From an uncultured Gammaproteobacteria bacterium (GTDB lineage Bacteria > Pseudomonadota > Gammaproteobacteria > JAADHQ01): DNA of 64,000 bases. Under the pieces are notes generated by a model, which worked only from the letters and a program-made list of their open reading frames with translations, did no database searches and was not told the DNA's origin. Within the stretch, counting starts at the first letter, position 1; each line of letters begins with the position of its first letter. The DNA lies in contig CAMYJO010000002.1 of the NCBI GenBank assembly GCA_947258755.1, positions 134,513 to 198,512 on the forward strand. The letters run 5' to 3'. The position numbers and the translations under genes are program-made. This document shows, piece by piece, positions 24,172-51,584 of the stretch.

Positions 24172-24588
24172 ATGGACAGAAGAGCATTGTTAAAATTGAG
24201 TCTGCTGGGTATCGGCGGCGCTGTTACCCCGGCCATCGTCTCGGCGAAGAGTAAGCTCGCTACACCGATAACAGGCAACCTGTATTATACCAAGGAGAAC
24301 CCGGGTCGCTGGTCTAAAAAGGTAGGCGGGCATTTCCCAACCGTCAAGCAACTAGCGGATGGCAAAATCAAGGTCATCACAAGCCATGCCATGAACGGCT
24401 ATCAACACTATATCGTCAAACACATCATTCTGGATAAGGACTATCAATTCATCACTGAGCATATGTTTGATCCAAGCACGGAAAAGGTGCCCATATCGAC
24501 CTTCGATCTTGGCTCTTACCGGGGGCAGATTCATGTACTCAGTGTCTGTAACAAACACGATACCTGGATGAATTCAGTAAGTGTATGA
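24172..24588 (+). CDS. Tat-exported superoxide reductase-like (desulfoferrodoxin iron-site) protein
   Basis: A 138-residue protein. The N-terminus is a twin-arginine signal (MDRRALLKLSLLGIGGA), so it should be folded and exported to the periplasm. The mature part follows the Fe(His)4Cys centre of superoxide reductases: H54 in GHFP, H72 and H79 in HAMNGYQHYI, and C126-x2-H129 in SVCNKHDTW. The spacing between H72 and H79 is one residue longer than the usual HPM...HYI. Superoxide reductases reduce superoxide to peroxide without making oxygen. It stands alone between its own promoter and terminator. Confidence 0.65.
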   Translation: MDRRALLKLSLLGIGGAVTPAIVSAKSKLATPITGNLYYTKENPGRWSKKVGGHFPTVKQLADGKIKVITSHAMNGYQHYIVKHIILDKDYQFITEHMFDPSTEKVPISTFDLGSYRGQIHVLSVCNKHDTWMNSVSV

Positions 24589-27386: not shown

Positions 27387-28199
27387 TTATTCAGATTGTA
27401 GTTTACGTACCCGTTCCCTGATTTCCTCAAACGTATGGCCGCTTTCCTGGCGTGCAGCCGGGGTCAGGAATGACTCCAGTTTCTTTGCCAGGCGTACGGA
27501 ATTCTGTTCATACTGGATGGCCATGACACCATCGGTAACCAGTTTCTGCATCATCAATTCACGCCCGGTCTTGGCGTTAATATTTTCGGCAATCGGGTTG
27601 AGGATAAAATTACTGAGCACGATGCCGTACAGGATCGAGGTCAGGGCGACCGCCATATTCTGCATGATAAAGTCCTGATCGCCATAGCCGGATAACATGG
27701 CTATCAGACCGACAACACTGCCGGCAACACCAAATGCAGGGGCCAGACGCGCCGCATGTCGGAACAGGCGTTCATGATGAATGCGGCGTTCATGAAAATA
27801 GTGCATCTCGGTGTACAGGATATCGCGCAGTTCAGCGGCGCTGTAACCATCAACCAGCATCTCCAGTGCGCGTTTTAAAAAACTGACGGTGGTTTCTTCT
27901 TCGGCGTCTTCCAGGGCCAGCATGCCTTTGCGACGTGAACGAACGGACAGGTCCATCAAGGTATTGACGATGTCCTCGGTGGTCGGTGGTTGTACGGTGT
28001 AGGCATTCTGCGCAACCCGCAGCGATGCAATGATGTCAGAGGAGGAATAGCTCAGAAACATTGCGCCTAGTGTCCCCGAAAATACAACCAGTAGACCCAG
28101 TGGGTTAAAAAATAAGCTGGCGTTATCGTAAACATAAAAGCTTGTCAGAAACAGGCTGATGAACAGCGCAACAGCCAGCCAGTTATAGCGGGTCATCAT
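27387..28199 (-). CDS. MotA-like stator ion-channel protein
   Basis: A 270-residue protein of the MotA/TolQ/ExbB family with four membrane helices. The third and fourth helix region has LAPAFGVAGSVVGLIAMLSG and AVALTSILYGIVLSNFILNP, with the conserved prolines of MotA/PomA. The cytoplasmic loop carries RALEMLVDGYSAAELRDIL, with charged residues as in the torque loop. It overlaps the MotB-like gene by four bases and is convergent with clpB. No flagellar gene is in the window, so it may be a second stator or a non-flagellar rotary unit. Confidence 0.85.
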   Translation of the reverse strand: MMTRYNWLAVALFISLFLTSFYVYDNASLFFNPLGLLVVFSGTLGAMFLSYSSSDIIASLRVAQNAYTVQPPTTEDIVNTLMDLSVRSRRKGMLALEDAEEETTVSFLKRALEMLVDGYSAAELRDILYTEMHYFHERRIHHERLFRHAARLAPAFGVAGSVVGLIAMLSGYGDQDFIMQNMAVALTSILYGIVLSNFILNPIAENINAKTGRELMMQKLVTDGVMAIQYEQNSVRLAKKLESFLTPAARQESGHTFEEIRERVRKLQSE

Positions 28200-29104
28200 G
28201 GTTTATTCTCCGTTTGCGGATTGCCGTCAAGCAAAATAATAATCTCCACACGCCTGTTCTGTGCGCGCGAACTGGCAATCAGGTTTGAGGTCACTGGCTG
28301 ATGCTGCGCCCGACCGCTGACAGTAAAGCGACTGGCATCAAGTCTGCCCACTTCGACCAGGTAGCGCATGACTGCGCTCGCCTGTGCCAGCGATAACGCC
28401 CAGTTATCCGGATAACGTATGCTGTCAATGATCTGATCGTCAGTGTGGCCGATAATTTGTATCGGCTTTTTTAACAGCTGTAGTATCTCTGCGAGTTGGT
28501 CAAGCATCACCGGGGCCGGTTGTAACAGCTCGGCGGTTCCGCTCTCGAATAGCCTATCTACGCCCAGCATTAATTTAATGGATCGTCCCGCCAGATGGCT
28601 TATCCTGACTTGCTCGCTGTTGCTTGTCGTCTGTGAATTACCGAATTGCAGCAACAGTGCGATGTTGGCGTCAGTGCCCGTATCCGCCTGGTTAGTGACA
28701 GCGGCTGTTGTCACTGGCTGCGATGCTGAGCGTATGCTGCCTGGTTCTTGTGTGGCGATGTTGACTGGGTCCTGTACCGTCAACGTCGTGGTGGATGCCT
28801 TTGTCTGTTCATCCTTACTTTGCAGGCTGATCAGCATAAACATGATCGCAAACAATACCATCATCAGATTGGCCCAGGGTATTGACCACAGGTTGTCATC
28901 ATCGTTATTGGAATTCTCAGTCAACAGCCCGGTGTTTTTGTGCCAATCCGGTGATTGCGCGAGCGTCAGTACCCACGGTGGAGCAGGTCTTTCATCCGCC
29001 TCGGTCTGCGGCCCTGTAGCAGGATCGGATGCGGTGCTATCGGCATCCTGGTCGCTGTCATTGGCATCCATTTCAGGCATGGGGGGTTCCTCGTTCTCGG
29101 GCAC
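28196..29104 (-). CDS. MotB-like OmpA-domain protein with Asn in place of the ion-binding Asp
   Basis: A 302-residue partner of the MotA-like protein; it starts with GTG. A long acidic cytoplasmic segment (1-70) precedes one membrane helix (about 73-95, WSIPWANLMMVLFAIMFM). At the place where MotB has the essential proton-carrying Asp (W-x4-A-D), this protein has N79, codon AAT at 28868-28870. The periplasmic OmpA domain (about 190-302) is normal: IQIIGHTDDQIID, NWALSLAQASAVM and RAQNRRVEIII for peptidoglycan binding. The change implies altered or lost ion coupling, or a stator used in another way. Confidence 0.8.
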   Translation of the reverse strand: MPENEEPPMPEMDANDSDQDADSTASDPATGPQTEADERPAPPWVLTLAQSPDWHKNTGLLTENSNNDDDNLWSIPWANLMMVLFAIMFMLISLQSKDEQTKASTTTLTVQDPVNIATQEPGSIRSASQPVTTAAVTNQADTGTDANIALLLQFGNSQTTSNSEQVRISHLAGRSIKLMLGVDRLFESGTAELLQPAPVMLDQLAEILQLLKKPIQIIGHTDDQIIDSIRYPDNWALSLAQASAVMRYLVEVGRLDASRFTVSGRAQHQPVTSNLIASSRAQNRRVEIIILLDGNPQTENKP

Positions 29105-29422
29105 TCATTCTGTTTAATAATAGTTGGATATATTGGTTTTCGTCCTTCTGCCTCAACTCTTTAGTGTATTCGTGGCTATTTGCACCTGTATAGACAGCGG
29201 AGCCAGGTTTTGAGCTGAGCTGAAGAGTCCGTCTTTATGCTGATATGGGCTTTTGCTGGTAAAGTTTGATTTTTATTGTTTTGGAATGCCTAACATCAAT
29301 AAAATTTTGCTTGCAAGTTGCAACGGCTGTACTAGGATTGAGACAGGCGTCGATGACTTGGTAGTTGAGATGACGATCGCCGATAATGATAACTATAAAA
29401 ATAGTATTGCAGGAGTATTAAG
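29105..29422. other. Spacer between divergent genes
   Basis: This 318-base stretch separates the MotB-like gene from the DUF2189 gene. A plus-strand open frame starting at 29253 overlaps the DUF2189 gene in another frame and has no recognisable features. GCAGGAG before 29423 is a good ribosome site. No convincing promoter was found. Confidence 0.4.
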
Positions 29423-44493: not shown

Positions 44494-45166
44494 AATGTCA
44501 TATTGGCATCTTATCCAGAATGCCAGTCTGGTCGTGCAGTTGGTGATGGTGTTGCTGGTACTGGCATCGGTAATGTCATGGACTTTTATTTTCCGTAAAT
44601 GGAAAACAGTCGCAAAAGCGCGTCGGGCGGCCGATAATTTTGAAAAACGCTTCTGGTCCGGTGGTGATCTTGGCGATATATACAAGCAGGTGCAAGCGAA
44701 GGGTAAGCGTACCTACGGTATGGAGAATATTTTCGAGGCCGGCTTCCGAGAGTTTGCCCGTCTGCGTAAACAGGATAGCGCCGTTGCCATGGATGTATTG
44801 CACGGTGCGCAACGGGCAATGCGGGTCGCCCAGGCGCGCGAGATGGATGCGTTGGAGACCCATCTGTCATTCCTGGCAACAGTCGGTTCTACCAGTCCCT
44901 ATGTCGGCCTGTTCGGAACGGTGTGGGGGATTATGAATTCCTTCCGTGCCCTCGGCAACGTCGAGCAGGCAACACTATCCCTGGTGGCTCCCGGTATTGC
45001 CGAGGCCCTGATAGCGACTGCGATCGGACTGTTTGCAGCGATACCGGCGGTAGTGGCCTATAATCGATTCGCCAATCATGTCGAGCGACTGGATAATCGT
45101 TACGATACATTCTCAGACGAGTTTTCTACTATCCTGCAACGTTATGCTTACGAAGCCAAAGGATAG
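44483..45166 (+). CDS. tolQ: Tol-Pal system protein TolQ
   Basis: A 227-residue inner-membrane protein with three helices (about 15-38, 130-155 and 165-190). The last two, with VGSTSPYVGLFGTVWGIMNS and GIAEALIATAIGLFAAIPAV, form the proton channel with TolR. It belongs to the MotA/TolQ/ExbB family. It energises TolA for outer-membrane constriction at division. tolR follows after 12 bases. Confidence 0.96.
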   Translation: MQIEMSYWHLIQNASLVVQLVMVLLVLASVMSWTFIFRKWKTVAKARRAADNFEKRFWSGGDLGDIYKQVQAKGKRTYGMENIFEAGFREFARLRKQDSAVAMDVLHGAQRAMRVAQAREMDALETHLSFLATVGSTSPYVGLFGTVWGIMNSFRALGNVEQATLSLVAPGIAEALIATAIGLFAAIPAVVAYNRFANHVERLDNRYDTFSDEFSTILQRYAYEAKG

Positions 45167-45178
45167 GCGGTCGTTTCG

Positions 45179-45610
45179 ATGGAAAAACCACGTCAGAAAA
45201 TAAAAAAACGACCGATGTCCGAGATTAATGTCGTGCCGTATATTGATGTCATGCTGGTATTACTGGTCATCTTCATGATTACAGCACCGTTATTGACACA
45301 GGGTGTCAAAGTAAGTCTGCCGCAGGCCAGTGCCAAGCCAATGGATAGCCAGAAGCTGAAACCACTGATCTTGAGTATCGATATCAACGGCCAGTTCTAT
45401 CTCGATGTTGGTGAGACACCGAATGAGCCGGTCGATGCGGCCACCCTGGTCGCCAGGATAGCAGCCGTTTTGCAAAGCAAAAAGGGCACTCAGGTACTGG
45501 TCAGGGGTGACGAAGGCGTCAATTATGGCAGAGTCATGGATGCGATGGTATTGGCACAAAAGGCGGGGGCACCGAGTGTCGGCATGATAACCCGCAATCC
45601 GGAGCCATAG
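45179..45610 (+). CDS. tolR: Tol-Pal system protein TolR
   Basis: A 143-residue protein with one N-terminal helix (about 18-38) carrying the essential Asp in MSEINVVPYIDVMLVLLVIF and a periplasmic ExbD-like domain (LSIDINGQFYLDVGE, VLVRGDEGVNYGRVMDAM). It forms the proton path with TolQ. In contrast to the MotB-like protein at 28196-29104, the channel Asp is intact. Confidence 0.95.
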   Translation: MEKPRQKIKKRPMSEINVVPYIDVMLVLLVIFMITAPLLTQGVKVSLPQASAKPMDSQKLKPLILSIDINGQFYLDVGETPNEPVDAATLVARIAAVLQSKKGTQVLVRGDEGVNYGRVMDAMVLAQKAGAPSVGMITRNPEP

Positions 45611-45615
45611 GTTTC

Positions 45616-46515
45616 ATGTGGACGTTTATTAGTCGTTATAGCTTTTTCTTGGCCCTGTCAGTTGTTTTGCATGTCATGGTCCTAGGTGGTTTATTATTGG
45701 GATTTTCATCGACCCCGGAACGGCCAAAACCATTAGGGGCGAGTAAAAAGAAAAACGTGATCCAGGCCGTGAGTGTGGACGCATCAAAGGTGCAGGCGGA
45801 ACTGCAGAAACTGCAGAGCGCCGAAATGAGTAGAAAACAACGCGAGTCCAAGCGCCAGAAACGGCTGCAGGATCAGGCCAAAAAAGCAGAGCAGCAACGC
45901 ATTAAGGAACAGGAAAAACTGGCGGCGTTAAAAATACAGCAAAAAAAGCAGCAGGACCGTCTGCAAAAACAGAAGCAGGAACAGGAAAAGAAGATATCGG
46001 AACTGAAAAAAAAGCAGGCGCAGGAACAGCAACGTATCAAAAAACTGAAAACAGCTGCCGCGGAACTGGAGAAGAAGAAAGTTGCCGAGAAAAAGCGCTT
46101 GCAGAAGCTAAAGGATGATAAGGCCGCGGCAGAGAAAAAACGCCAACAGCAAAAATTACGCGCGGCGCAGGCCAAACGTGAAAAGGCCCTGAAAGAACAA
46201 ATGGCTGCAGAGGAACAGGCAGAACAGGAACAAGAGCTGGAGGGCGTGCGTTCCAGTTATATTGACAGTATTGCTGCTGTTATTAATCGCAACTGGCGAC
46301 GGCCATCGCGTGTCGACAAGGACGCCTCTTGCCTGATAGAAGTAACACAGATTCCGGGTGGTGAGATCATCTCTTACCGGGTCAGCAGCTGCGATGGTGG
46401 CGTGGTTTTCCAGGATTCAGTAGAAAGGGCGGTGGGTAAGACTTCGCATCTGCCGGCACCACCTGATCCGCGCGTATTTGATCGCGTGATACGTTTTAAA
46501 TTTACTATTAAATAG
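45616..46515 (+). CDS. tolA: Tol-Pal system protein TolA
   Basis: A 299-residue protein: one N-terminal helix (about 10-32) with the S-H-containing face that meets TolQR (FFLALSVVLHVMVLGG), a long Lys/Gln/Glu/Ala coiled coil (about 55-210) crossing the periplasm, and a C-terminal domain (about 210-299) with YIDSIAAVINRNWRRPS and a Cys pair (ASCLIEV and VSSCDGG). It links the inner-membrane motor to Pal and TolB. The antisense strand of the coiled coil gives long spurious frames. Confidence 0.94.
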   Translation: MWTFISRYSFFLALSVVLHVMVLGGLLLGFSSTPERPKPLGASKKKNVIQAVSVDASKVQAELQKLQSAEMSRKQRESKRQKRLQDQAKKAEQQRIKEQEKLAALKIQQKKQQDRLQKQKQEQEKKISELKKKQAQEQQRIKKLKTAAAELEKKKVAEKKRLQKLKDDKAAAEKKRQQQKLRAAQAKREKALKEQMAAEEQAEQEQELEGVRSSYIDSIAAVINRNWRRPSRVDKDASCLIEVTQIPGGEIISYRVSSCDGGVVFQDSVERAVGKTSHLPAPPDPRVFDRVIRFKFTIK

Positions 46516-49559: not shown

Positions 49560-51584
49560 ATGGGAAAACTGTTTTCAAAATTTACTATTAATCAAAAGAT
49601 CTGGGGCGGCTTTGGCTTGCTACTGATTATCCTGAGCGTGGTGTCGGCAGGCAGTATAATGGGTCTGTCATCGACGCAGAGCAGTATCAAGAAAGTCGTC
49701 AGTGACGTGCAACCGACACTGGTGGTCTCTCTGGAACTAGCGCAGGTTCTGGATAGCTCGGCCCAATCCCTCGGTTTCTATTTATTGAGTCTGGAAGAGG
49801 CCGACAAGAAAGCCTATCAGGAAAGCCTGAACCAGGTTGGTACGGTGCTTACCAGTCTGAAGCAGCAAAAACCGATTATGGACAGCGCAGAGATGAAACA
49901 GCTGGTCGCCAGTATTGAAACACGCACCCAGAAATACCAGTCTTACCAGGGACAGATGTTTAAATACGCAGCGTCACAACCGGCCAACATGCCCGCTGTT
50001 GCCATTACCAGTAATGACATGAACCCGTTGGCCCGGACCCTGTTGCAGCAAATTGGTGTGATGTCTGGTGCGGAAATGGAGATTGATGACGAAGAGTTGA
50101 AGGCCAGTATCACTAAGGATATATACGAGCTGCGTTATGCCTATATGAATGTCCTGAATGAGATGCGCGGTTACCTGTTCTCAAGGACAGACAGTTTGAA
50201 GGCCAATCTTGGTCTGTATACCAGCAGGGTTAATGAGTTGGTGACAAAATTGAACGGCTATGGCGAGGACCTGGGTTTCGAACAGTCCGACGCGCTGGCT
50301 ATTTTTGAAAAAACCTATGCCAAGTATCAAAAATTAGTAACCCGTGTGATTGAAGCACACGGTAGCGACAAGTGGCGTAGCGATGCCTATGTGATTCGCA
50401 CGGAGCTTGGCCCCTTGCTGAAGACTATCAAGAGCGATCTGAAAACCCTAGTGACAACACTGCAAGGCATGTCTGAACAGGAAAGCACGCTGCTATTGGA
50501 TCGTGTCAATGGTTCACAGGCACTGGTCAGTACCCTGTTTATCGTAGGCCTGTTGATAGGCCTGGGTTGTGCCTTATTGATTGTGAATGTAGTCGTCAAG
50601 CCACTGAAAATTGCTGTACATGCGATGAATGATATCGCCGAGGGCGAGGGTGACTTGACCCGCAGACTGGATGCTGAGGGTAAGGATGAGATTGCTGCAT
50701 TTGGTCAGGCCTTTAACAAGTTCGCCAGTAAGGTGCATGGTGTTGTTTCCGAGGTCATGAATTCAGTGTCACAACTATCGAGTGCGGCCTCTGAATTGTC
50801 TATGGTGACTAACCAGACCAGTGATGGTGTTGCGCGTCAGCAAATGGAAACTGAGCAGGTAGCCACAGCGATGAATGAAATGACATCTACTGTGCAGGAA
50901 GTTGCCAATAATGCCGAACAGGCAGCTGAAGCGGCTAATGATGCGAATACGGCATCACAAAGCGGTAATAGCATCGTCAATGAAGGTATCAAGTCGATCA
51001 GTTCATTGGCTACTGAGATCACCAATGCATCTGATGTTATCGGCCGATTGGAAACCGATAGCGAAAATATCGGCACTGTGCTGGATGTTATTCGCGGCAT
51101 TGCCGAGCAGACCAATCTGTTGGCATTGAATGCGGCGATTGAGGCGGCACGTGCCGGTGAGCAGGGTCGCGGTTTCGCGGTAGTTGCGGATGAGGTCAGG
51201 ACCTTGGCGTCACGTACACAGGAGTCGACCCAGGAAATACAATCGATGATCGAGAAGTTACAGAGCGGTGCTCATGATGCGGTGGAAGTGATGACAGCCA
51301 GTCAAAGCCGAGCCTCTGAGACCGTTGGTCATGCCAATGAGGCGGGTAATGCACTTAATTCCATTGCCGGCTCGGTTGAAAGGATCAATGATATGAACCT
51401 GCAGATCGCCAGCGCTGCCGAAGAACAGAGTTCGGTCGCCGAGGAGATCAATATGAACGTGGTCAAGATAGCGGATATTGCCCAGGAGACTTCGGGCAGT
51501 ATGCAGCAGATCGCCAGTTCCAGTGAAGACCTGGCACGCCTGTCTACTACCCTCGATCAACTGGTGGGTAGCTTTAAAGTCTAG
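49560..51584 (+). CDS. Methyl-accepting chemotaxis protein
   Basis: A 674-residue chemoreceptor: first helix about 16-38, an all-helical periplasmic sensor of about 280 residues (HBM-like size), second helix about 323-345, a HAMP domain ([26 protein letters not shown]) and a cytoplasmic signalling domain whose hairpin tip is [20 protein letters not shown], the contact for CheA and CheW. It has no C-terminal CheR-binding pentapeptide. It is a single-gene unit with its own terminator. It may control flagella or type IV pili; the ligand is unknown. Confidence 0.93.

Follow-up and report, generated by a model that had tools for sequence, protein, structure and literature searches.

A flagellar stator-like gene pair with asparagine in place of the ion-carrying aspartate

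What can a flagellar stator-like complex do when the aspartate that carries its coupling ion is missing? Two overlapping genes raise this question in the genome of an uncultured gammaproteobacterium, in a 64,000-nucleotide stretch of DNA that was analysed as a whole and is referred to here as the window (Table 1). They encode a MotA/PomA-like A subunit and a MotB/PomB-like B subunit, and codon 79 of the B gene specifies asparagine where Vibrio PomB has D24, a residue that has been called universally conserved in stators (PMC10374538). A sequence-only reading of the window had claimed that the substitution is present, that the genes are otherwise intact, and that the product may be a stator that does not conduct, is regulated or is coupled differently. 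We examined the two subunits, their relatives, their predicted folds and their genomic setting.

Table 1. Coordinates of the stator-like gene pair, its notable sites and its upstream region in the window
Feature	Position	Strand	Remarks
A subunit, MotA/PomA-like, 270 aa	27387..28199	-	PF01618, 3.8e-15; ATGA overlap with B gene
Family-unique substitution cluster, A 172-189 (Y172, Q175, F177, M179, M182, A183, I189)	27633..27686	-	
A-subunit codon 189 (PomA T186 position)	27633..27635	-	ATC, Ile; Thr in 82/84 relatives
Rotor-facing R89 and E97, A subunit (PomA R88/E96, E. coli MotA R90/E98)	27909..27935	-	Retained
B subunit, MotB/PomB-like, 302 aa, GTG start	28196..29104	-	One membrane helix and C-terminal OmpA domain
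OmpA-type peptidoglycan-binding domain, B 185-284	28253..28552	-	PF00691, 3.4e-16
Conserved membrane block, B 68-98, DDDNxWSIPWANLMMVLFAIxFMLISLQS	28811..28903	-	90% identity between the two Asn genomes
Ion-carrier codon 79, B subunit	28868..28870	-	AAT, Asn; PomB D24 / E. coli MotB D32 position
Patch upstream of B gene, 54 bp	29113..29166	-	Conserved in G002, 79.6%

The ion-carrying position and a second altered site

The plus strand reads ATT at the ion-carrier codon, which is AAT on the minus strand, and direct reading of the B subunit places Asn79 at the end of the segment W73-S-I-P-W-A-N79, as had been claimed. In alignment with five Asp-bearing stators, three of them from the window's genome and two from elsewhere in the class, Asn79 falls in the aspartate column in every case (the aligned motifs are WKVAFAD, WMVSYAD, WIISYVD, WMVTFAD and WLMTFTD). 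The aspartate in the B membrane helix that is a trait of ion-driven stator units is therefore absent, with asparagine in its place. An acidic residue elsewhere in the channel would offer another carrier, and a search for one returned none. Direct reading found the B membrane helix (residues 73-96) and the membrane parts of the four A-subunit helices to be free of Asp, Glu, Lys, Arg and His, which leaves the membrane without another acidic residue. A replacement ion carrier was rejected on the same ground, that the membrane segments of both subunits have no charged residues.

The claim that the MotA-like partner is intact did not hold: the conserved prolines P154 and P202 are present, but the channel threonine at residue 189 is isoleucine. 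This residue aligns with T186 in the PomA chain of a solved structure, and it is isoleucine in both genomes that carry the asparagine (the window's and G002, from another member of the genus) and threonine in every other stator aligned. Among relatives of the pair, the only two that lack threonine here have proline; one of them, L117, retains Asp in its B subunit and comes from a genome without detected FliG. When A-subunit columns conserved in at least 80% of relatives were compared, the Asn pair departed at four, 182, 183, 189 and 216. Seven of the 12 family-unique A-subunit sites lie within 18 residues (permutation p about 1e-4, start residue left out), in the periplasmic turn between TM3 and TM4 and the outer part of TM4. 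The positions of PomA T158, T185 and T186, which together form one Na+ site in PomAB (PMC10374538), are occupied by S161, S188 and I189, and the set of threonines that marks a PomAB-type sodium site is not found.

The remainder of the B subunit has also changed at many positions that do not vary among 26 relatives from Gammaproteobacteria and Betaproteobacteria. The changes include A89F (membrane helix), P183D, and E236A (OmpA domain). With these changes, and with those of the A subunit clustered at 172-189, the picture of an intact remainder and partner had to be abandoned. E236A is found in both Asn genomes and counts against a motor role. A further change in the OmpA domain, R241Q (28382-28384), affects an arginine that is invariant in the 26 relatives and kept in G002; it too counts against a motor role, and it may weaken the cell-wall anchor in the window's species only.

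Laboratory mutants are known in which these two positions carry the same replacements. Vibrio PomB-D24N, PomA-T158A and PomA-T186A gave no motility, no ion transport and no Na+-binding infrared signal, and the complexes formed; PomA-T158I and T186I were isolated in a random screen and were apparently functionless (PMC6677748). Unlike PomB-D24N, PomA-T186I/A and E. coli MotB-D32N, the pair described here combines both changes, in nature and under selection. Because two positions essential in Vibrio are substituted and no membrane charge stands in for them, the published mutants make it quite probable that ion conduction has been lost.

Descent and selective constraint

To place the asparagine among related proteins, contigs of GTDB genomes were scanned with a pattern that set no condition on the critical codon. 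Aspartate was found at 86 of 87 loci, and the single locus with asparagine was G002's own contig. Counted as distinct MotB-like membrane motifs, 66/68 have aspartate and the two with asparagine are those of the window and G002; MotB-like frames of other families have aspartate in 20/20 cases. A search of 196 genomes from the order of the sister lineage (E 1e-24) found no further Asn members near it. In the A-subunit tree the window and G002 group together (SH-aLRT 100). Their sister group is a lineage with aspartate (96), and both are nested within the Asp family. The asparagine is a single derived Asp-to-Asn change within that family.

The Asp orthologues, recognized by the motif WxxPWxDLMM, belong to the same family by descent and occur in Gammaproteobacteria, in Desulfovibrionales and their relatives, and in Nitrospirota, with A subunits up to 69% identical to that of the window (L107). 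In contrast to the Asn pair, all of them have the aspartate, all have proline at A-subunit position 183, and nearly all have threonine at position 189. Alignment of homologues at the clpB-adjacent locus, proposed earlier as a check on whether asparagine is fixed, found it in 2/2, although the homologues at that locus are those of the two same-genus genomes only; outside them, orthologues lie in other gene contexts and have aspartate. No gene neighborhood beyond the pair itself is widely shared across the family, and the neighborhoods gave no functional hint. No plasmid copies of the pair were found.

G002 has the pair at the corresponding locus, amid the same neighbors (an SDR gene, a DUF2189 gene and clpB). 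The A subunits of the two genomes are 90.7% identical (dN 0.051, dS 1.51), and working stators compared between the same genomes are 93.0% (MotA) and 88.4% (MotC) identical. The A-subunit dN/dS, about 0.03, equals that of the working stators of both genomes. The B subunits are 47% identical overall, with conservation concentrated in the membrane block. The pair is under strong selective constraint, and this purifying selection implies that the complex still does something. Both reading frames are open, in agreement with the earlier claim of a clean, undecayed gene. FliG but not the pair is found in two further members of the genus (genomes 95% and 79% complete), an observation that counts against a motor role.

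Fold, rotor face and genomic setting

The AlphaFold2 model of the A subunit (mean pLDDT 82.6) has four membrane helices. Compared with the definition of flagellar ion transporter stators (FIT, TGI4) in PMC12505986, it shows the square four-helix membrane fold, with TM3 unbroken (helix 121-170), and the expanded cytoplasmic domain of four helices or more (here 53-68, 74-91, 93-102 and 106-116). The B model, a membrane helix and an OmpA fold joined by a disordered linker, has the OmpA domain that the same definition places on the B subunit, and this domain matches those of MotS, PomB and MotB. In a search of PDB folds, the best 23 matches to the A model were flagellar MotA/PomA chains (TM-score up to 0.90 by target length); ExbB and TolQ appeared only after a sharp drop (E 7e-3 or worse, TM-score at most 0.6 by target length).

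Pfam matches the OmpA domain of B and the MotA_ExbB domain of A above cut-off; B scores 14.4 bits against PF13677 (MotB_plug), under the cut-off of 24. The FIT definition also has a plug and linker behind the B membrane helix; residues 106-142 of B are disordered and modelled with low confidence, and their helix propensity is not clearly distinct from that of the Asp family. Neither the model nor helix propensity revealed a plug helix in the B subunit, a further point against a motor role. Plug loss as a change accompanying the asparagine was rejected, since the Asp relatives also lack a consistent plug.

Several known systems resemble the pair. Vibrio PomAB (8BRD) shares the A-subunit fold (TM-score 0.82-0.89 by target length), the pairing of A with B, the OmpA domain on B and the rotor-facing R88/E96 positions. 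It differs in that D24 is here Asn, T186 is Ile, and T158 and T185 are Ser, and in that the present pair has no clear plug and is unlinked to flagellar genes. In NCBIfam the pair comes closest to Bacillus MotPS, with 110 bits for MotS and 164 bits for MotP, each well short of its cut-off, and the MotS periplasmic domain is the best PDB match of the B model, but MotPS is ion-driven and the present pair lacks the aspartate. ExbBD and TolQR are distant superfamily kin (PF01618); unlike them, the pair has a larger cytoplasmic domain and an OmpA domain on B, and the fold match is weak. Assignment to such generic ion transporters (GIT) was rejected, as the A subunit has neither the condensed cytoplasmic domain nor the ExbB/TolQ fold. 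Zorya ZorAB, marked by a long cytoplasmic tail on ZorA and by zor genes nearby, was likewise rejected, because the A subunit has only 270 aa and the neighbors are clpB and the DUF2189 gene. Elsewhere in the window, at about 44720-46515, a TolQ-like gene is followed by one for a TonB/TolA-like protein, probably as part of a Tol-Pal operon. The pair is homologous to flagellar stators by descent and lacks the aspartate that defines an ion-driven stator.

The genome encodes FliG, two flagellin matches and three further Asp stators (MotAB, MotCD and one more pair). The two retained rotor-facing residues of the A subunit correspond to E. coli MotA R90 and E98, which are described as contacting FliG (PMC7564593). 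FliG was detected in 33/39 sampled genomes of the pair set (35 with the pair or its Asp form, the rest genus mates and near copies) versus 99/181 genomes of the class (Fisher p 5e-4), a difference that is a lead only, the sets not being matched by lineage. Four genomes carry an Asp-bearing pair without detected FliG or flagellin: G266 (L019, 97% complete), G378 (L068), G388 (L110) and G390 (L117). Since the Asp family extends to such genomes, its ancestral role was perhaps not flagellar.

No flagellar genes adjoin the pair, which lies beside clpB and the DUF2189 gene; this too counts against a motor role. The conserved upstream patch contains a weak sigma-28-like element, TAAAGAGT-N11-GACGAAAA; the flagellin of the same genome is preceded by TAAAGATC-N11-GCCGTTAA. 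With 12/16 bases fitting in the window and 11/16 in G002, the element is at best a weak candidate for a sigma-28 promoter tying the pair to the flagellar regulon, and its weakness counts against a motor role. The window also encodes a methyl-accepting chemotaxis protein that contains 4HB and HAMP domains (49560-51584) and a small protein whose N-terminus is Tat-like and whose match to desulfoferrodoxin is below threshold (24172-24588).

Possible roles of the complex

The reading we prefer, at a probability of roughly 0.45, is that the pair forms a selected, non-conducting stator-like complex that acts in the flagellar motor as a passive or competing unit. The ion pathway would have been dismantled in both subunits, by Asp to Asn at the D24/D32 position of B and by Thr to Ile at the T186 position of A. 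The complex would probably still assemble as A5B2 with a periplasmic OmpA domain, would neither bind nor conduct the coupling ion, and may serve as a brake, load-tuner or place-holder. A motor role is the most likely one because the complex keeps the fold of a flagellar stator and the Arg and Glu that face the rotor, and because its genome also has flagellar genes and three Asp-bearing stators; even so, we infer action at the motor with somewhat less than even confidence. We are slightly more hesitant to call the pair a pseudo-stator, in which ion coupling was given up through both subunits and the complex was kept as a regulatory or structural motor unit, much as in pseudoenzymes. Of the earlier claims, the one on the kind of stator is supported.

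Published mutants bear on this reading in more than one way. Borrelia MotB-D24N is non-motile, yet about 45% of stator positions are occupied (PMC6663468), and Pseudomonas aeruginosa MotB-D30A was interpreted as a dominant-negative form that possibly competes for sites in the motor (PMC12288467). Stators of E. coli and Vibrio are held in the motor partly by ion flow (PMC6663468), so a non-conducting unit might not stay there.

The main rival, rather unlikely in our estimation, is a non-conducting stator-shaped complex with a role outside the flagellum, as a static link between inner membrane and cell wall or as a sensor. The want of flagellar neighbors fits such a role, as do the genomes in which the Asp family occurs without FliG and flagellin, and a conserved membrane block and A subunit combined with a periplasmic linker free to vary. 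The flagellar-type fold and the retained rotor-facing charges argue the other way, as does the higher frequency of FliG in the pair-set genomes, with the same reservation about lineage matching.

A working motor with altered coupling, in which another ion or carrier residue is used and the asparagine and changed TM4 constitute a retuned site, is distinctly less probable. The cluster of changes at 172-189, together with those in the B helix, resembles remodelling rather than loss, the hydroxyls of S161 and S188 are kept, and a carrier can move, as when MotA P173D restores proton flow in an E. coli MotB-D32N complex (PMC4030992). Here, however, P154, at the position of P173, is unchanged, the membrane segments have no acidic or basic residue, and the threonine at 189, whose loss stops Na+ binding, is also gone.

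Decay of a paralogue on its way to loss is improbable: the pair is missing from two genomes of the genus and the B linker is nearly unconstrained, but the A subunit is constrained like working stators of the same genomes, and open frames and synteny persist in both. Chance, or a sequencing or assembly error at codon 79, is excluded for practical purposes, since the independent genome G002 encodes the asparagine by a different codon, AAC rather than AAT, and has the same second-site T189I.

In the papers cited here, the effect of passive stators is known so far from laboratory mutants only, and no account of natural Asp-less stators was found in a search of open-access literature. Where the aspartate is described as universal (PMC10374538), this natural pair has asparagine, accompanied by isoleucine at a second essential position, under the constraint of a working stator. 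Such a pair would separate the stator functions that need no ion flow, namely assembly, rotor contact, cell-wall anchoring and signalling, from torque, and it offers a natural case in which to ask if flagellar motors are regulated by passive stator units.
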